This document shows, piece by piece, positions 10,020 to 18,244 of a DNA stretch of 64,000 nt. The stretch lies in the NCBI RefSeq assembly GCF_012999535.1, contig NZ_JABBWV010000002.1, positions 496,001-560,000 on the forward strand. Reading direction: 5' to 3'. Made by a program: the position numbers and the translations under genes. The stretch comes from Microbispora sp. H11081 (GTDB lineage Bacteria; Actinomycetota; Actinomycetes; Streptosporangiales; Streptosporangiaceae). The notes below the pieces were generated by a model. The model did no database searches, was not told the DNA's origin, and saw only the letters and a list, made by a program, of their open reading frames with translations. Position 1 is the first letter of the stretch. Every line of letters begins with the position of its first letter.

Positions 10020-11063
10020 ATGGTGCGGCGAGGTCGTTCCGAGCGAGCCACCCTTGCTGATGTCGCCCGAGTGGCCGGCGTCTCGCCGACGACCGCGTCC
10101 AAGGTCCTCAACGGCCGCAGCGACGTGGGGCGGAGCACCCGGGAGCGAGTCCTCTCGGTGATGGCCGAGCTCGGCTACAAGCCGACGGCGGTGCGTCACG
10201 AACGCGCGCGGGGCCGGGCCCTCGTCACCATGCTCGACTTCGTGGAGTCCCGCTACGCCGGGACGGTGCTCCAGGGGATCCTCATGGCCGCGACCTCCGC
10301 GCAGGCCGAGCTCGTCCTCCGCCTGCCGCCCGGCGAGCCGATCAGCACGACCCGTACGGCGGCGCGTGCCTGGGTGGATGAGCAGAAGGAGTCCGGAGTC
10401 GCGGGTCTCGTGGCGCTCGCCGTCGCGGTGCCCGACGCGGTGCTCCTCGCCGCGGAGGATCTCGGGATGCCCGTCGTGACGATCGACCCGATCGACACGA
10501 CGGAGTCGCGTGTCGTCAGCATCGGCTCGACCAACTGGGCGGGCGGGCGCTCGGCGACCGAGCACGTCATCAGGCTCGGCCATCGCAGGATCGCCTGGAT
10601 CGGCGGCCCGCCGGGCTCGGCCCCCTCGGCGGAGCGGTTCCACGGCTACCAGGCCGCGCTCGACTCGGCCGGCATCGCGCAGGACCGCGCGCTGATCCGC
10701 AACGAGGCCTTCTCCGTCGAGGCGGGCCTGCGGCACGGCCGTGACGTCCTCGCGCTCGGCGAACGGCCGACCGCGATCGTGGCGGGCAACGACGAGATCG
10801 CCGTCGGCGTCCTCGCGGCGGCGAAGGAGGCGGGCGTCGCCGTCCCGGGAGAGCTGTCGGTCACCGGGTTCGACGACACCCCGCAGACCGAGTGGACCAC
10901 GCCCCGGCTCACGTCCGTCAGGCAGCCTCTCGTCGGCATGGGCCGCATGGCCGTCGAGACCGTCCTCGCCATGGCGGACGGCGTCCAGCCCGCCTCCCGC
11001 CATCTCCAGCTCGCGACGACCCTCAGCGTCCGCGACTCGACGGGCCCCGCTCCGTCGCGCTGA
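10020..11063 (+). CDS. LacI-family transcriptional regulator
   Basis: Sugar-responsive repressor, 347 residues. An N-terminal LacI helix-turn-helix (TLADVARVAGVSPTTASKVLNGR, about 11-33; hinge near 50-60) is followed by a periplasmic-binding-protein-like sugar-sensing domain ending in SVTGFDDTPQTEWTTPRLTSVRQP. The ATG at 10020 has AAGGAG six bases upstream; an in-frame earlier start at 9909 would run through the AT-rich control region and is unlikely. Divergent to the GH39 gene, so its ligand is probably a xylo-oligosaccharide or similar sugar (inference). Its 3' end overlaps the convergent CopD-CtaG gene by 41 bp. Confidence 0.92.
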   Translation: MVRRGRSERATLADVARVAGVSPTTASKVLNGRSDVGRSTRERVLSVMAELGYKPTAVRHERARGRALVTMLDFVESRYAGTVLQGILMAATSAQAELVLRLPPGEPISTTRTAARAWVDEQKESGVAGLVALAVAVPDAVLLAAEDLGMPVVTIDPIDTTESRVVSIGSTNWAGGRSATEHVIRLGHRRIAWIGGPPGSAPSAERFHGYQAALDSAGIAQDRALIRNEAFSVEAGLRHGRDVLALGERPTAIVAGNDEIAVGVLAAAKEAGVAVPGELSVTGFDDTPQTEWTTPRLTSVRQPLVGMGRMAVETVLAMADGVQPASRHLQLATTLSVRDSTGPAPSR

Positions 11064-12903
11064 CCGGCCCGGGCGCCGTGTCCCGCCGCGGAGCGCCCCG
11101 CCCGGCGAGCACCAGCGCGAGCAGGCCCGCGAGCACGGCGACGGTCACGCCCGTGCCGAGCAACGCGCCGAGCCGCTGGTCGGCCGCCCGTTCAGGCGCC
11201 CACGGCAGTTCCAGCGCGGCGTACCACTCCGGAGCCTGCGGCGGCCCCGCGAGCACCGCCAGGCCCGTCCACGCGCGTACGGCGATCGCCCCCGCGAGCA
11301 TCCAGACGCGCGCCTGCGGCCGGACCGCGCGGGCGGGCGGGTCCACACCGGCCGCCACCACGAGGAAGAGCACCGCGGTGACCGTCACCACCGTCTGCGC
11401 GGCCAGTCGCTGGGCGAGGCTCGGCTGGGCCTGCTGGAACAGGCCCGTCAGGTACAGCGCCGGATACGGCAGCACGTACAGCGCGAGGGCCGTCACCGGA
11501 TGGGACAGCGCGCGGCCCGCCTGGCCCGCGAAGGGCGCCGAGCCCGGGAGCGCCCGCCGCCACAGCGTCAGCGGGGCGCCGAAGACCAGCAGGACCGGCC
11601 CCACCGCGCCGAGCAGCGCGTACTGCGCCGCGTGCGCGGAGAACACCGCGGGCGCGTAGGCCGCCACCCCGCCCGACGTGGCGTAGCCGAGCACGGCCAG
11701 GCCGGCGATCCACGACGCGGTGCGCGCGGCCGGCCACCGCTCGGCGGCCCCCGGCGGCGCGGCGCGCGACAGCCGCCGCACACCCGCCAGGTACGCGGCG
11801 AGGGCCGCGGCCAGCAGGAGCAGCGCGATCGGATCGGGCCGCACCTCGGTGGCGAGCGTCCCAGGGGAGAGGGCGGGCAGTGCGTATCCCAGCGCGTCGT
11901 GCTGATGCGGGGCCGCCGGCGCGGGCGGCGGGGGCGTGCGGCCAAGCGCCACGGCCAGGCCGAGGGCCCCGGCCATCACCACGATCTCGCCGCAGGCGAG
12001 TCGGAGGAACGGCGCGCGGGCCCCGCCGGACTCCATCGCCCTGATGGTCCCGCGCCGGTGCCGCCACCCGAACCAGCCGAGCGCGGCCAGCGCGGCGATC
12101 TTCGCCAGCACGAGCAGGCCGTACCGCGACTGCCAGAGCGGCGGCAGCGAGCCGAGCCTGACCCAGGCGTTGAGCGCGCCGGACGCCCCGACGGCGGCGA
12201 AGCAGCCCAGCGCGAGCGCGCTGAAGCGGCGCACGGCGACGGTGAGCGCGGGCGCGGCGCGCAGGTGCGCCAGGAGGGCGTACAGGCCGCCGACCCACAG
12301 CGCGACGGCCGCGACGTGTGCCATCAGGCTGAGGACGGCGAGGTTGTGGTCGGCCGCCGAGGCCGAGTGGCCCACGTACGCGGGGGGCAGCAGCGCGAGG
12401 ACCGCCACGGCGAGCAGCGCGGGCCGCAGGAGCGGGCCGTCCGGCAGGAGCGAGCAGACGGCGACCGCCAGGGCCGCGGCCGTCACCGTCAGGAACGCCT
12501 GTCCCTGCGGGACGTGGAAGACGAAGGCGGGCAGCGCGCCGGAGCGCAGCGCGTCGCCGGGAGGCAGCCCGAGGAAGTCCGACAGCGTCAGGACCTCGGT
12601 GACCGCGGCGCTCGCCGCCCAGCCGAGCGCCCAGGCCCCGGCCGCCCGCACGACGGCCCTGCCGCTCGCGGGGGAGAGGACGGCGGCGGCCAGCAGGGCC
12701 CCGACCGTGGCGGCGGCGCAGACGTCGTGCACGAGGCGCACGACCGGCAGCCCCCAGGCGGTCAGCGCACCGGGTGAGGGCAGCCCCGGGATCGCCGGGC
12801 TCGGCCGGGCGCCGCCGAACCACAGGGCGGCCAGCAGCACGGTGAACGCCGTCGCGGCGACGGCGGGGACGACCACGCCGCGGAGGCGCTGGGGAGATGT
12901 CAT
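11023..12903 (-). CDS. CopD / CtaG fusion membrane protein
   Basis: Polytopic membrane protein of 626 residues joining a CopD-type copper transport domain (roughly 1-310, with VGHSASAADHNLAVLSLMAHVAAVALWVGGL-type His/Met helices) to a caa3 cytochrome oxidase assembly CtaG domain (roughly 340-600, with AHAAQYALLGAVGPVLLVFG). Such fusions are common in actinobacteria and are thought to bring copper to the oxidase or across the membrane. The ATG at 12903 has GAGGA eight bases upstream. It faces the small membrane protein, YcnI, DyP and PCuAC genes to the right, all consistent with copper handling. Confidence 0.9.
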   Translation of the reverse strand: MTSPQRLRGVVVPAVAATAFTVLLAALWFGGARPSPAIPGLPSPGALTAWGLPVVRLVHDVCAAATVGALLAAAVLSPASGRAVVRAAGAWALGWAASAAVTEVLTLSDFLGLPPGDALRSGALPAFVFHVPQGQAFLTVTAAALAVAVCSLLPDGPLLRPALLAVAVLALLPPAYVGHSASAADHNLAVLSLMAHVAAVALWVGGLYALLAHLRAAPALTVAVRRFSALALGCFAAVGASGALNAWVRLGSLPPLWQSRYGLLVLAKIAALAALGWFGWRHRRGTIRAMESGGARAPFLRLACGEIVVMAGALGLAVALGRTPPPPAPAAPHQHDALGYALPALSPGTLATEVRPDPIALLLLAAALAAYLAGVRRLSRAAPPGAAERWPAARTASWIAGLAVLGYATSGGVAAYAPAVFSAHAAQYALLGAVGPVLLVFGAPLTLWRRALPGSAPFAGQAGRALSHPVTALALYVLPYPALYLTGLFQQAQPSLAQRLAAQTVVTVTAVLFLVVAAGVDPPARAVRPQARVWMLAGAIAVRAWTGLAVLAGPPQAPEWYAALELPWAPERAADQRLGALLGTGVTVAVLAGLLALVLAGRGAPRRDTAPGPVSATERGPSSRGR

Positions 12904-13119
12904 CGTCGGCGTCCTCGGCTCGGCACCGGTGATCGATTGCGAGTATGGCCCACCGAGTGTCCGCGCGGGAGACCACGCCTGACGACCGGCCGCCGCCAGC
13001 GCGTTCCGTTGAAACGTTCACGGCTCGTCCGGGGGCCGTCGCGGCGCGTTTCTCGTGGTGTGCGGAGGGCCGCCGACGACCCGGCCTAGATCGCCGGGGT
13101 GTGAGACAATCCCGGCGAC

Positions 13120-13713
13120 ATGCGCGCCTCACTCTCCCTCCGGCTCGCGCGGGCGGCCTCGTTCTCCGCCGTCTGCGTGCTCCTCGCCGTCGGCGCGCAC
13201 CGGTTCGCCGGCGGAGGCGGGCCCGCGCCGGGCGCGCTCCTCACGGGCGTGCTCGTGGTCACGGCGGGCGCGGCCGTCGCCGCGGGCAGGCAACGGTCGC
13301 CCCAGGCGATCGCCGGCCTGCTGATCGGCGCCCAGGCCTTCCTGCACTGGCTCCTCGAGGCCACGGCCTCCGCCACGGAGGCGAGGCATCCGACGTGGCA
13401 CGGCGGCCTGAGCGCGCAGACCGGCATGCTCACCGCCCACCTCACCGCGGCGCTGCTCACCGGATGGTGGCTGGCCCGCGGCGAGGAGGCGCTGTGGACG
13501 GTGCTGCGCACGGCCGGGGCGGGAGTGGCCGGCTGCCTGCGGGCCGTGGCCGCGCTGCTGGCCGCGCTGACGGCGCCGCGGGGAGCGGATCTCGCCGCCG
13601 CACGGCGTCCTCGCCGGCGTTTCCGGCCCGGCGCCGGGGGCGAGGGCCGCACCGCGGGCGCGCTGCGGCACGTCGTCGTCCGGCGCGGGCCGCCTGGTCT
13701 TCCCGTCTTCTGA
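13120..13713 (+). CDS. Small membrane protein, copper locus (paralogue A)
   Basis: I do not recognise a named family. 197 residues with about four hydrophobic segments in the first 150 and a basic C-terminal tail ending in VVRRGPPGLPVF. It is a clear paralogue of the product of 16614-17189: both begin with LRLARAA(S/A)F(S/T)AVC, have a central His (ALH/AFLH), share a block with an H-rich loop, a Met, then AH, LT and WLARGE-ALW-LLR-type spacing, and end with RRGPP. His, Met and Trp in membrane segments plus the neighbours (YcnI, PCuAC, CopD-CtaG) suggest a metal-related role; this is inference. The ATG at 13120 has little SD, and a short GC hairpin with a GACAAT box lies just upstream. Located 101 bp before YcnI and probably co-transcribed. 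Confidence 0.7.
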   Translation: MRASLSLRLARAASFSAVCVLLAVGAHRFAGGGGPAPGALLTGVLVVTAGAAVAAGRQRSPQAIAGLLIGAQAFLHWLLEATASATEARHPTWHGGLSAQTGMLTAHLTAALLTGWWLARGEEALWTVLRTAGAGVAGCLRAVAALLAALTAPRGADLAAARRPRRRFRPGAGGEGRTAGALRHVVVRRGPPGLPVF

Positions 13714-13814
13714 GCCTGTCGCGCGGGTGGCGCACGACTCCGGGGGATCGATCCCTTCCCTCCCGGGGCATCCCCGCGCGCCTTCGTAACCTCGCAGACG
13801 ACTGGAGAAGCCCC

Positions 13815-14555
13815 ATGACCTCGTACGTCCGTCGCGCGGCCGCCGTCACCGCCGGTGCCCTCGCGCTCACCCTCGGCCTCGCCGTGCCCGCTCTCGCCCA
13901 CGTCACCGTCAACCCCGGCACCGCCGTCCAGGGCGGCTGGACCAAGATCGCCTTCCGCGTGCCCAACGAGCGGGACAACGCCTCGACCACCAAGGTCGAG
14001 GTCGAGTTCCCCACCGACCACCCGCTGCCGTTCGTGTCCGTACGCCCCGTGCCCGGCTGGGACGTGAAGCTCACCCGCGGCAAGCTGCCCAAGCCCGTCC
14101 AGTCGGACGCCGGCGACACGATCACCGAGTCGGTGCTGAAGATCACCTGGTCCGGCGGGAAGATCGAGTCCGGCCAGTTCCAGGAGTTCGAGGCCTCTGT
14201 CGGGCCGCTGCCGAAGAACGTGGACGCGCTCACCTTCCCCACCGTGCAGACCTACTCCAACGGTGAGGAGGTCAAGTGGGCGGACGCGCCGAAGACCGAC
14301 GGCTCAGAGGCCGAGCACCCCGCGCCGGTGCTCAAGCTCGTCGCCGCCGCGGAGGGGGAGGACGGCCACGCCGCCGCCCCGACCGCTGCCGCGCCCGCCG
14401 CGCAGCCCACGGTGGCCGCCGCCGCCCACGACGAGGACGACGACGAGGACGAGGGCGGGAACACCACGGCCCTGGTGCTCGGCGGCGTCGGCCTCGTCGC
14501 CGGCCTGGTCGGGGCGGGGGCGGGCCTGACCGCCCTGCGCCGTTCGCGGGGCTGA
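13815..14555 (+). CDS. YcnI-like copper-binding protein (DUF1775)
   Basis: Exported, membrane-anchored YcnI-family protein, 246 residues. Signal peptide 1-28 ending PALA, so the mature protein starts with His (HVTVNPGTAVQGGW). In Bacillus YcnI the N-terminal His, with a Trp and Glu, binds Cu(II); here the N-terminal His and candidate Glu/Trp residues are present. The DUF1775 domain covers about 29-170, followed by an Ala/Pro linker, an acidic DEDDDED stretch and one C-terminal TM helix (about 215-238) with an RRSR stop-transfer. GGAG lies 8-9 bases before the ATG. Downstream are a terminator and the convergent DyP/PCuAC operon. Confidence 0.92.
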   Translation: MTSYVRRAAAVTAGALALTLGLAVPALAHVTVNPGTAVQGGWTKIAFRVPNERDNASTTKVEVEFPTDHPLPFVSVRPVPGWDVKLTRGKLPKPVQSDAGDTITESVLKITWSGGKIESGQFQEFEASVGPLPKNVDALTFPTVQTYSNGEEVKWADAPKTDGSEAEHPAPVLKLVAAAEGEDGHAAAPTAAAPAAQPTVAAAAHDEDDDEDEGGNTTALVLGGVGLVAGLVGAGAGLTALRRSRG

Positions 14556-14602
14556 TCCCGGGGAGCACGGGCGACTCGGCCCCCGGGCGTGAGTCGCCTT
14601 AC

Positions 14603-14642
14603 GCGAGGAGCGGGAGACCCGGCAGGGCCTCCCGCTCCTCGC
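14603..14642. terminator. Bidirectional terminator between YcnI and DyP
   Basis: A perfect 14-bp inverted repeat (14603-14616 with 14629-14642) centred between two convergent genes. Confidence 0.75.
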
Positions 14643-14663
14643 GGGCCGGTCACCCCGGCCGGA

Positions 14664-15875
14664 TCAGGACAGCAGGGTCTCGCCGATCCAGCCGTCCGCG
14701 GCGCATCCGGGCGGCACGGCGAAGACGGCCGACCCGATGGCCGTGATCCACTGGTTCAGCAGATCCATCTCCGCCATCCGCGCCTGGATCGGGACGAACT
14801 GCCGGTCCACGTCGGCCTGGTAGGACGCGAACAGCAGTCCGGCGTCCGGCCGTCCCTCCGGGCTGAGGCCGTCCTCGTAGTTGTAGGCGCGGCGCAGGAT
14901 CCGCTGGCCGGGGTCGGCCGTCCGGACGCGCCGGATGTGGGCGAACTCGGAGATCACCGGCAGGCCCGACGGGCCGAGCGCGGCGAAGTCGGGCTCGTCG
15001 GTCTCGGCCTGCCCGGTCAGCGGCGCGCCGTTGTCCAGCCGCCGCCCGACGCTGAACTCCTTGGCGGTCCGGTCCGCGGCGTCCCACTTCTCCAGGTCCA
15101 TCCGGATGCGCCGCAGCACCAGCGTGCTGCCGCCGCGCAGCCACCCGTCGCGCACCCACACCGCCCGCTCGAAGTCGGGCGACCCCGGCGTCGGGTTGAC
15201 GGTGCCGTCGAGCTGGCCCATCAGGTTGCGCTGGGTGGTGCCGGGCGCGCGGACCTGCGGGCTCTGCCGGAAGCCGTGCTGGGTCCAGCGCACGGTCGCG
15301 AAGGAGCGGGCGTCCTTGACGAGCACGCGTAAGGCGTGCGCCAGCGTGACGCGGTCGTCCGCGCACACCTGGAGCAGCAGGTCGCCGCCGCTCCAGCGGG
15401 GTTGCAGGGCGTCGCCCTTGAACGCTCGCAGCGGCTTCGGCGCCAGGCCTTCGGCCCCCGCCGCCTCGAACAGCCCGGCGCCGAACCCGAAGGTGACGGT
15501 GAGCCGGGCGGGCAGCAGCGCCAGTTCCGCGTCGGTGTCGGCGAGGGCGGGCTCGCCCCGGGTGAGCCGTCGCGCGTCGTCGGTCAGCAGCCGCATCAGG
15601 CGGATCAGCGCCGCACGATCGGTCCCCGGCCGCAGGTCGAACCCGGCGAACACCCCGAACGTCTGCGGAGGGGTCGCGATGCCCGCCTGGTGGACGCCGT
15701 GGAAGGGCTCGACGGCGTCACCGCCGGGGAGCGGCGCGGGCCCGGCCGCCGCGCCACGGGCCGCCGGCACGGCGGAGACGGGCGCGCAGGCGGCCGCCGC
15801 GGCGGCGGCCGCCCCTCCCGCGAGCAGGCCGCGCCTGGTGAGCCGCCGCCCCATCGAGTTCTCGCGCTCACCCAT
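14664..15875 (-). CDS. Tat-exported DyP-type heme peroxidase
   Basis: Dye-decolourising peroxidase, 403 residues, exported folded with its heme by the Tat route. The N-terminus has LTRRGLLAGG (twin-arginine) and a long Ala h-region ending AAAACAP, so it may even be a Tat lipoprotein. DyP hallmarks: GQLDG (220-224, catalytic Asp223 of GxxDG) and the proximal heme ligand in EFAHIRRV (His313). The general form resembles EfeB/YwbN deferrochelatases, but no EfeU/EfeO genes are nearby. The ATG at 15875 overlaps the PCuAC stop by 8 bp (translational coupling); an alternative ATG lies at 15854. Co-expression with a copper chaperone is the main contextual clue. Confidence 0.92.
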   Translation of the reverse strand: MGERENSMGRRLTRRGLLAGGAAAAAAAACAPVSAVPAARGAAAGPAPLPGGDAVEPFHGVHQAGIATPPQTFGVFAGFDLRPGTDRAALIRLMRLLTDDARRLTRGEPALADTDAELALLPARLTVTFGFGAGLFEAAGAEGLAPKPLRAFKGDALQPRWSGGDLLLQVCADDRVTLAHALRVLVKDARSFATVRWTQHGFRQSPQVRAPGTTQRNLMGQLDGTVNPTPGSPDFERAVWVRDGWLRGGSTLVLRRIRMDLEKWDAADRTAKEFSVGRRLDNGAPLTGQAETDEPDFAALGPSGLPVISEFAHIRRVRTADPGQRILRRAYNYEDGLSPEGRPDAGLLFASYQADVDRQFVPIQARMAEMDLLNQWITAIGSAVFAVPPGCAADGWIGETLLS

Positions 15876-16443
15876 GGGGGGCGTACGACTCGTTGCCGCC
15901 GGCGAAGTCCTTGGCCACCGCGGTGAAGGACACCGTCCTGCCGTCCTTCAGGGTGAGCGTGAACGGCACCTCGGCGCCGGGCTCGACGGGCGTGCGGACG
16001 TCCATGAGCATGATGTGGTCGCCGCCGGGCTCCAGCACGTGCCGCCCGCCGGCGGGGATCACGATCCCGCCCTGCTTGCGGCGCATGGTCGTGGCGCCGG
16101 CGTCTCCGGTGACCTCGTGGAGTTCCACGGAGGGGGAGACGGGCGTGCTCGCCCCGACGACGGTGATCGCCTCGCCGGTGGTGTTGACGAGCGTGCCGAA
16201 GGCGGCGCTCATGCCCGAGTGGGCCGTCTTCACCCACGGATCGCTGACCGACAGCGGGGCGGCGGCCGGTGTGGCGGGCACGGAAGCAGGCGCGGAGGCA
16301 GGCGCTGTGGCGGGAGCCGAGGCGGAGACCTGCGCCGCCACCGGCGACACGGCGGTGGTGGAGGCCGGAGCGGCGCAGGCGGACGCGGTCAGGAGGGCGG
16401 CGATCGCCGCCGGGATGACACGGTGAACGGTCGTGCTGGTCAT
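15868..16443 (-). CDS. PCuAC-type copper chaperone lipoprotein
   Basis: Periplasmic/extracytoplasmic Cu(I) chaperone of the PCuAC (DUF461) family, 191 residues, which delivers copper to the CuA or CuB site of cytochrome oxidase. The ATG at 16443 has an AGAAGG SD. Signal peptide with lipobox TASAC, so it is lipid-anchored. After a Thr/Ala/Pro-rich spacer the domain shows the copper motif residues: SGMSAAFG (Met), VELHEV (His), MRRKQGG and HIMLMD (His and Met). It is the second gene of the minus-strand set paralogue B - PCuAC - DyP. Confidence 0.92.
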   Translation of the reverse strand: MTSTTVHRVIPAAIAALLTASACAAPASTTAVSPVAAQVSASAPATAPASAPASVPATPAAAPLSVSDPWVKTAHSGMSAAFGTLVNTTGEAITVVGASTPVSPSVELHEVTGDAGATTMRRKQGGIVIPAGGRHVLEPGGDHIMLMDVRTPVEPGAEVPFTLTLKDGRTVSFTAVAKDFAGGNESYAPHG

Positions 16444-16613
16444 GCGGAAGCCTTCTCTCGGTCGTCCGGCGGGCACTCGGGCGCGTCCCGTGCGCCGGGC
16501 GCGGCTGAGAACCGGGGACACGCGCGCGGGCGTGCTCCGCCGGGAAAGATGTGATCACGCCCCGAGCCCTTGGCGGCCGGGAGCGCGGTGAGGAGCGCGG
16601 TAGGAGCGCCGTC

Positions 16614-17189
16614 TCAGCGGGACGGCAGGAGAAGGCGTGGCGGGCCCCGCCGGGTGACGCAGTGACGCGGCGCGACGGAGCGGGGGACACGCGGCTCGGC
16701 CGGGTGCGGCGACGCAGGGGGCGTGCGCACGGGTGGCGCGGGATCGCGGGCGATCCTGGTCAGGCGTACGGCGAGCCGCCGCAGCAGCGCCCACAGGGCG
16801 GCCTCGCCCCTGGCGAGCCACAGCGACGTCAGCACCACCGCCCAGCCGTGGGCGATGAGCATCCCCAGGCCGGGCCCGGCGTGCGGGTGCCCGGCCACGA
16901 CGCCCAGGGCGGGCGCCGGTGACAAGGGCGCCGGTGACAAGGGCGACGAAAGGGCGAACAGCACGTGCAGCGCGACCTGCAGGACCGCGAGCAGCGGGAG
17001 GATCGAGCGAAGCGTGCGTTCCCGGCCGGACAGGGGCAGCGCGGCGGCGAACACCCCGGGCAGCCCGAGCGCGAGCGCGTCTGGGGCGACCGCGCCGCCG
17101 CCGAACAGGTGCGCCAGCACGCCGAGGCCGAGGCACACCGCGGTGAAGGCGGCGGCCCTGGCGAGGCGGAGCGGCGACGTGACCTGCAT
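16614..17189 (-). CDS. Small membrane protein, copper locus (paralogue B)
   Basis: Unrecognised family; 191 residues, about four hydrophobic segments, a Pro/Arg-rich C-terminal tail ending RRGPPRLLLPSR. Paralogue of the product of 13120-13713 (see shared LARAA-F-AVC start, central ALHVLF, HPHAGPGLGMLIAH, WLARGEAALWALLR). Start: the ATG at 17189 (MQVTSPLRL), without a good SD; CATATT nine bases before it may be a leaderless -10. It lies 170 bp upstream of PCuAC on the same strand, so it probably heads that operon, as paralogue A heads the YcnI operon. This symmetrical arrangement is the main hint to a role in copper trafficking. Confidence 0.68.
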   Translation of the reverse strand: MQVTSPLRLARAAAFTAVCLGLGVLAHLFGGGAVAPDALALGLPGVFAAALPLSGRERTLRSILPLLAVLQVALHVLFALSSPLSPAPLSPAPALGVVAGHPHAGPGLGMLIAHGWAVVLTSLWLARGEAALWALLRRLAVRLTRIARDPAPPVRTPPASPHPAEPRVPRSVAPRHCVTRRGPPRLLLPSR

Positions 17190-17320
17190 GGCACTGCCAA
17201 TATGACATGCCAGGGGGCCGGTCCCCCCTCCGGGACGCCGTGTCGCCCTGGTGGTCCGTTCCGCCCGCGGCCGACGCCTGTTCTCCGGCCACGGGCCCGC
17301 GACCCCGGGCTCGGGGGCGC

Positions 17321-18244
17321 TCAGGGGTCCGCCCGCCCGCGCTCCCGCCGGCGGTACTCGGACGGCGAACTGCCGGTGATCCGCTTGAACGCGGTGCTGA
17401 GGGCGCTTTCCGAGCCGTACCCGACGGCGCGGGCGATCGTGGCGAGCGTGTCGCCGCCGTCGCGCAGGCTCCGGGCGGCGAGTTCGATGCGCCATTGGGT
17501 GAGGTAGTCCAGGGGGCCGCGGCCGACCGTGTCCTTGAACCGCGCGGCGAGGGTGGACCGGGACACCGCGCCGGCCCTGGCCAGCTCCGCGACGGTCCAC
17601 GGGTGGCCGGGCCGCGCGTGCATGGACCGCAGCGCGGCCGCGACCACGGGGTCGGCGAGACCGGAGAGCCAGCCCGACACCGCGCGGGGCTCGCGGGCGA
17701 GATGCAGCCGCAGGACGTGGATGAGCATGACCACGGCGAGATGCTCGGCCGCGAGCGTCGAGCCGATCGCCCGGCCCCGGAGCTCGGCGTCGATCTGTTC
17801 GAGGGCCCACCGAACCGCGCCCGCCTCGCCGGTCTCCGCGGGGACGTGGATGACCGGCGGCAGCCCGTCGAGCAGGAGCGAGCGGGCCCGGTCGCCGAAC
17901 GAGAAGCGGCCGCCGATGAGAAGCGTGTCCGTTCCGTCCCCGACGTGGGGGAGGCCGTCACCGGCCGCCGCCCACAGCGGTCCTGCGTCGACGGGGACGG
18001 CATGCGGGTCGCTGAGGAGCGTGAAGCCGAGCGGGCGCGTGAGCAGGAAGCAGTCGCCCTCCGCCAGGGAGATCGGCGCGTCGAGGCCCTCGACGTCCAG
18101 GAGGCACCGGCCGCGCTGCAGAGCGTTGAACTTCACGCCGTCCGGCGCCTCGAAGCGCACGGCCCAGCGGCCTCCCGCCGACATGCCCGTGGACAGGTGC
18201 GCCCTGGTGCCGAGCAGCGCGAGCACGTCTTCGAGCGGATCCAT
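17321..18244 (-). CDS. AraC-family regulator with cupin domain
   Basis: 307-residue transcription factor: an AraC-binding-type cupin_6 domain (about 1-190, starting MDPLEDVLALLG) and a C-terminal double HTH (about 205-300) with SRSTLAARFKDTVGRGPLDYLTQWRI and ATIARAVGYGSESALSTAFKRITGSSPSEYRR. CCGGAG precedes the ATG. It is divergent from an SDR gene with only 100 bp between starts; AraC cupin_6 genes are often paired with an oxidoreductase they control, so the SDR is the likely target. Inducer unknown. Confidence 0.92.
   Translation of the reverse strand: MDPLEDVLALLGTRAHLSTGMSAGGRWAVRFEAPDGVKFNALQRGRCLLDVEGLDAPISLAEGDCFLLTRPLGFTLLSDPHAVPVDAGPLWAAAGDGLPHVGDGTDTLLIGGRFSFGDRARSLLLDGLPPVIHVPAETGEAGAVRWALEQIDAELRGRAIGSTLAAEHLAVVMLIHVLRLHLAREPRAVSGWLSGLADPVVAAALRSMHARPGHPWTVAELARAGAVSRSTLAARFKDTVGRGPLDYLTQWRIELAARSLRDGGDTLATIARAVGYGSESALSTAFKRITGSSPSEYRRRERGRADP

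Follow-up and report, generated by a model that had tools for sequence, protein, structure and literature searches.

A family of small membrane proteins encoded beside copper-protein genes in Actinomycetes, examined from a locus of Microbispora sp. H11081

A copper locus with two paralogous membrane proteins

The window analysed here, a stretch of 64,000 nucleotides (64 kb) from Microbispora sp. H11081, contains a locus of six genes in which two small membrane proteins, here called paralogue A and paralogue B, each stand first in a set of copper-related genes (Table 1). Paralogue A heads the set A-YcnI and paralogue B heads the set B-PCuAC-DyP. All six genes lie where the original prediction, made from the letters of this stretch, had placed them. 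The family to which A and B belong is absent from the protein-family libraries searched and is new in this sense, in a process of a known kind. The gene neighbourhoods and conserved residues of its members are consistent with a role in copper handling.

Table 1. Features of the locus (positions counted from the first nucleotide of the window)
Feature	Positions	Strand	Remarks
CopD-CtaG fusion (CtiP-like)	11023-12903	-	Divergent from A; distance to A differs within the genus
Promoter-like stretch of A	13092-13117	+	Abuts the start codon of A; from an alignment of four Microbispora; putative role
Paralogue A	13120-13713	+	Protein with four transmembrane (TM) segments; H27, Q72, H76, M103, H107, C-terminal RRGPP; immediately 5' of ycnI
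YcnI (DUF1775), partner of A	13815-14555	+	PF07987, 1.3e-50; signal peptide end ...ALA-HVTV; C-terminal TM segment
DyP-type peroxidase	14664-15875	-	Signal RRLTRRGLL, of twin-arginine translocation (Tat)-like type
PCuAC copper chaperone, partner of B	15868-16443	-	PF04314, 9.9e-35; lipoprotein-type N-terminus
Paralogue B	16614-17189	-	Same family as A; H27, Q71, H75, M110, H114, RRGPP; immediately 5' of PCuAC-DyP
Promoter-like stretch of B	17190-17213	-	CATATT box abutting the start codon of B; near-identical in four Microbispora; putative role

A and B are real paralogues of one family, as had been claimed. They align over their full length with 39% identity (BLASTP, E 2e-24) and have in common all the motifs that had been named, including LARAA-F-AVC, a membrane histidine, a histidine-containing loop with GM, WLARGE-ALW, and a C-terminal RRGPP. 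This likeness exceeds that expected from composition, since a search with P0001 as query gave a match at E<=0.01 in 38 of 60 related genomes, and the positions shared by A and B are invariant in a diverse alignment. Both genes are under purifying selection in Microbispora, with ratios of nonsynonymous to synonymous substitution rates (dN/dS) of 0.23-0.43 for B and 0.45-0.82 for A.

The original prediction took all six genes for a single copper locus framed by A and B. This holds for the sets A-YcnI and B-PCuAC-DyP but not for the whole block, which we reject as one conserved unit because the spacing between CopD-CtaG and A varies and because the two sets are separate in the related genomes G001 and G011, where they lie on different contigs or far apart. 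In one Microbispora locus, CopD-CtaG and A are separated by a gene (L075, 4123-5817) whose product was recognised with Pfam as a secreted alpha-galactosidase carrying a ricin-type lectin domain. A gene that appears similar by its position lies between them in another (L077, 4155-5819), and neither the window nor L076 has such an alpha-galactosidase gene there. With the two sets apart in relatives and another gene between CopD-CtaG and A, the fixed units are A-YcnI and B-PCuAC-DyP.

The promoter-like stretch of A contains an inverted repeat, CGCCGGG-N12-CCCGGCG, which encloses a GACAAT box and is near-identical in four Microbispora. The boxes located 5' of A and B resemble the -10 boxes of leaderless promoters. 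Since the two stretches are unlike each other, each set may have a regulator of its own. No CsoR-type operator (TACCC-N3-8-GGGTA) was detected within the 64-kb window. The gene immediately upstream of B (17321-18244), which has the same orientation, encodes an AraC-type regulator that contains a Cupin_6 domain, and other Microbispora keep it in this position. At the other end of the B set, the PCuAC and DyP genes overlap by 8 bp. The peroxidase scored 365 bits against TIGR01412, the equivalog of EfeB (the iron-uptake DyP), which is below the cut-off of 428 bits.

Distribution, partners, and conserved residues of the family

A family profile was built from 18 diverse members. Profile searches detected the family in 106 of the 196 sampled genomes of Actinomycetes, with 1-8 copies each. 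No member was found outside the class Actinomycetes in a phylum-wide genome sample, and no relatives were found among viral contigs. Meanwhile, a degenerate-pattern scan derived from a single protein recovered only three Microbispora loci in named genomes. Searched one by one, A, B, and the 18 diverse members gave no significant Pfam or NCBIfam match, and neither these sequences nor their profile gave a PDB sequence match above noise. Literature searches on the RRGPP motif and on the Streptomyces gene SCO3968, which is discussed below, found no functional study.

CopD (PF05425), which has a putative intramembrane copper site, Caa3_CtaG, PepSY_TM, and MauE/DoxX are, like A and B, membrane proteins found in copper or redox operons. 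A and B differ from all of them in having no Pfam match and no profile-profile similarity. Comparisons with hhalign gave a probability of 0.1% for CopD and CtaG and of 0.1-0.2% for PepSY_TM, MauE/DoxX, FecCD, and DUF6153, the MauE and DUF6153 profiles being single sequences. Given this lack of profile-profile similarity, we reject a reading of A and B as degenerate halves of CopD or CtaG.

The neighbouring genes were surveyed for 149 copies from 67 genomes among the matches listed, with split hits joined. A YcnI or PCuAC gene lies within 4 kb (<=4 kb) of 79 of these 149 copies, while random placement, at a genome size of about 7 Mb, would give about 0.4. YcnI and/or PCuAC are downstream on the same strand in 68 of these 79 cases. 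Hence, the homologues are not scattered away from copper genes. The co-occurrence that had been proposed as a check on the copper link was also found at the level of genomes, as YcnI or PCuAC is present in 99 of the 106 genomes with the family compared to 42 of the 90 without it, a comparison for which the p-values ignore relatedness. Inspection of the loci of the remaining 70 listed copies revealed a broader set of downstream genes: PepSY_TM, CopC, DsbA-like thioredoxins, extracytoplasmic function (ECF) sigma factors, Sco, DyP, a cupredoxin, DUF1775 proteins that the first search had missed owing to their divergence, Peripla_BP_2/FecCD importers, a Ferric_reduct protein, and a Penicillinase_R regulator.

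Conservation and partners were counted on 109 non-redundant member sequences taken from the fetched loci. A recognisable downstream partner on the same strand is present for 106 of them. The partner labels, a few of which were assigned by reading and most of those later confirmed by Pfam, were YcnI (26), ECF (16), DsbA (16), PepSY_TM (14), CopC (13), PCuAC (8), Sco (6), FecCD (4), DyP, cupredoxin, and Penicillinase_R (1 each), and none (3). One of the three unlabelled members (L130) has a Ferric_reduct protein downstream, according to Pfam. The standard copper families (YcnI, CopC, PCuAC, Sco, DyP, and cupredoxin) are the partners of 55 of the 109 members, and this is the fair prior count, since the other partner categories were named after inspection. 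The median gap to the partner ranges between 99 and 338 bp among the classes with more than one member, FecCD excepted.

Some of these arrangements deserve description. In four loci (L083, L110, L112, and L118), the open frame runs from the family member through the CopC gene, so that a fusion protein is possible; in these loci the CopC gene still has a start and a signal peptide of its own, and L082 has a stop. In eight loci (L085, L086, L104, L106, L114, L117, L121, and L145), a family member and an ECF sigma factor together make up a small unit, and the loop of the family member is often Met/His-rich. The membrane protein may act as the sensor in such units. Some ECF-linked members have DyP or PCuAC directly upstream.

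Among the 109 sequences, H27 and H107 are invariant, R11 is conserved in 99%, and E122 in 94%, being otherwise replaced by D. Q72 and H76 are each conserved in 86%, M103 in 83%, and W117 in 76%. The C-terminal R-G-P-P is present in 98-100%, in part perhaps because the search profile contained this motif. A and B carry the complete family signature (H27, H107, R11, E122, and the C-terminal RGPP) and also the signature of the copper-linked type, Q72-H76-M103. The latter is kept in most copper-linked members, and the exceptions to H76 and M103 fall mostly in one non-copper clade. The claim that His, Met, and Trp are conserved in the membrane segments is thus borne out for His and Met, which remain conserved in the wider family, but not for Trp117, for which conservation is just moderate.

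The hydropathy of B reveals four TM segments. There is no lysine or arginine in the loop between TM3 and TM4, while 14 of these residues follow TM4 in the C-terminal tail, which suggests that the loop is outside and that both the N- and C-terminus are in the cytoplasm. Helix TM4 of A falls below the simple hydropathy threshold applied. With this topology, H27 (TM1), H76 (TM3), and M103 (TM4) would be located in the outer part of the membrane, and Q72 and H107 about one turn deeper. The TM3-TM4 loop is rich in His and Met in all the larger partner groups but the DsbA-linked one. The loop histidine is present in A and B, where the enrichment is modest.

On the tree of the family, A and its relatives form a clade encoded before YcnI, with one labelled CopC, and B and its relatives form a clade encoded before PCuAC, with one FecCD outlier. 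These clades are well-supported sister groups within the taxonomic family of the window genome, suggesting that A and B most likely derive from one duplication and retained different partners. Across the full tree, 34 changes of partner label are required, compared to a possible minimum of 11 and to 73 changes with shuffled labels, indicating that partners are inherited yet have been swapped many times.

One Streptomyces clade is linked to DsbA. In 15 of the 16 DsbA-linked sequences, the site reads H-E-D-L-H instead of H-Q-H-M-H. Per 100 residues, their loop contains 3.9 His+Met, compared to 10-17 in the main copper-linked groups (rank test p 3e-9, which ignores relatedness, the clade being probably a single event), and it carries two Cys on average. 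This clade is a natural control, in which the Q-H-M residues and the His/Met-rich loop were lost together, and its role may lie in thiol oxidation instead of copper handling. It is carried by L084, L087, and other Streptomyces-type loci; by reading, L087 lies near dnaE. The most Met-rich loops of all belong to ECF-linked members.

Proposed function and alternative explanations

Based on these findings, we propose, with a probability of roughly 0.55, that the family of A and B is a four-helix, copper-binding partner of the adjacently encoded protein, with its site on the outer face of the membrane and a role in copper handling. Each member would be a small four-TM protein, with both termini in the cytoplasm, that works with the extracytoplasmic protein encoded just downstream. 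The outer-face TM3-TM4 loop, with its enrichment in His and Met, would capture copper or dock a copper-loaded partner. Copper may then be held in the outer third of the membrane by the conserved residues H27, Q72, H76, M103, and H107, its putative ligands. As suggested by gene order, it would pass to the partner or be taken from it, the partner of A being YcnI and that of B being PCuAC with DyP, either for the loading of cuproenzymes or for import together with CopD-CtaG. The invariant cytoplasmic RGPP tail at the C-terminus may contact one common partner. By the duplication and partner swapping seen on the tree, one scaffold would come to serve many metal-redox proteins.

Several points weigh against this proposal. 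Metal binding by A and B is deduced from residue conservation and gene order. Some partners are not copper proteins, namely DsbA, the ECF sigma factors, the FecCD importers, and the Penicillinase_R regulator. Among the matches listed, no family member is found near 88 of 139 YcnI genes and 43 of 86 PCuAC genes, so the family is not obligatory. Two AlphaFold runs over eight sequences gave poor models, with a predicted local distance difference test (pLDDT) of 59 and 54 and a predicted template modelling score (pTM) of about 0.3, leaving a common metal site unsupported in three dimensions. The better model (pLDDT 59), itself a poor query, found no relative with Foldseek (best E 8.4). The original prediction of a new partner in copper trafficking is therefore partly supported: it withstands the results on gene neighbourhoods and on His/Met conservation, but partners extend to PepSY_TM, DsbA-like thioredoxins, ECF sigma factors, and metal ABC importers, copper binding is a putative property, and the suggested part in cytochrome oxidase metallation is a possibility to which none of the results is specific.

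That H27 and H107 are the sole fully invariant histidines, and are retained in the DsbA-linked clade, would also fit a membrane redox adapter. In such a protein, H27 together with H107 (or H76) would ligate haem b, or the site would meet menaquinone, and electrons would flow to or from the partner. It could reduce Cu(II), serve DyP or PepSY_TM and ferric-reductase-like proteins, or re-oxidise DsbA, and PepSY_TM, a Ferric_reduct protein, and DsbA-like thioredoxins are indeed among the partners. We nevertheless consider this explanation unlikely, since a haem protein needs no His/Met-rich loop, yet just one of the larger groups, the DsbA-linked one, lacks such a loop. Moreover, H27, H76, and H107 are predicted to lie towards the outer edge of the membrane rather than at mid-depth, and the family has no profile similarity to PepSY_TM.

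The ECF-linked members suggest a different possibility, namely a sensor or regulator whose outer site senses copper and whose cytoplasmic RGPP tail controls a cytoplasmic factor, in the manner of an anti-sigma factor acting on an ECF sigma factor. An ECF gene directly follows 16 of the 109 members, no anti-sigma gene was recognised in the ECF-linked loci inspected, and no soluble part of the protein is more conserved than the tail motif. However, in most contexts no regulator adjoins the gene, and the family has no similarity to the anti-sigma domains known from family libraries, which makes this quite improbable. Less probable still is a metal-free membrane scaffold, which would anchor or assemble the exported partner once this has been secreted and in which the His and Met residues would be structural. 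Although the gene comes first before many different exported proteins and partners are often swapped, several of these partners (YcnI, PCuAC, and CopC) are already lipoproteins or have a TM segment of their own, and the loss of the His/Met features tracks the one non-copper clade.

The copper-binding proposal can also be stated more broadly, in a form that we regard as doubtful. A single modular scaffold would then be the membrane partner shared, in Actinomycetes, by the majority of copper and metal-redox systems that act outside the cytoplasm. It would combine an outer-face metal site, a variable loop with His/Met or Cys that matches the partner, and a universal cytoplasmic RGPP tail that leads to one common cytoplasmic factor.

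Comparison with known copper systems

The window genome has no SCO1-SenC match anywhere, despite the presence of PCuAC, YcnI, and CopD-CtaG, and hence no Sco gene beside PCuAC of the kind that marks the sco operon of Streptomyces. Outside the locus there are five CopC matches. Another contig carries a second YcnI, which adjoins a CopC protein and has no family member nearby among the matches listed.

In Streptomyces, the operon sco, ecuc, SLI_4212, dtpA has been studied (PMC4736821), and the genes upstream of sco are given as an "integral membrane protein" (3968) and a "hypothetical membrane protein" (3967) (PMC3603459). Among our loci, L149 holds on one strand a family member, DUF1775, Sco, PCuAC, CopC-CopD-YtkA, and DyP, as identified with Pfam, and the gene order of L148 has the same layout. 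Both loci are assigned to Streptomyces by inference, partly from gene order. The Streptomyces sco operon (sco-ecuc-SLI_4212-dtpA; SCO3968-SCO3963) resembles the order of these two loci, in which the family member comes first, and by gene position alone the family member of L149 most likely corresponds to SCO3968. In comparison to this operon, the set in the window is split into A-YcnI and B-PCuAC-DyP, has two family members, and belongs to a genome without Sco.

The copper-deprivation genes of Corynebacterium glutamicum (CtiP, CopC cg1884, PCuAC cg1883, and DyP cg1881) share with the window a CopD-CtaG fusion, PCuAC, and a DyP-type peroxidase (PMC9145763, PMC7764795); the accessible parts of these papers describe no family member. 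CtiP is required for a stable bc1-aa3 supercomplex in C. glutamicum (PMC9145763). Since the CopD-CtaG protein of the window has an architecture like that of CtiP, a role of the A/B locus in copper supply to the oxidase is possible by analogy. In the ycnKJI operon of Bacillus subtilis, YcnI adjoins a CopD protein, which is reminiscent of the window, and no family member is mentioned in the accessible parts of the sources (PMC8424229, PMC13344008).

These findings bear on the question of how exported copper proteins such as YcnI, PCuAC, and Sco acquire their copper in actinobacteria. As a conserved and never-named membrane protein encoded at the head of such operons, and at the SCO3968 position beside the well-studied sco operon of Streptomyces, the family member is a concrete candidate for the missing component. 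The DsbA-linked clade, in which Q72, H76, and M103 are replaced, can serve as an internal control.

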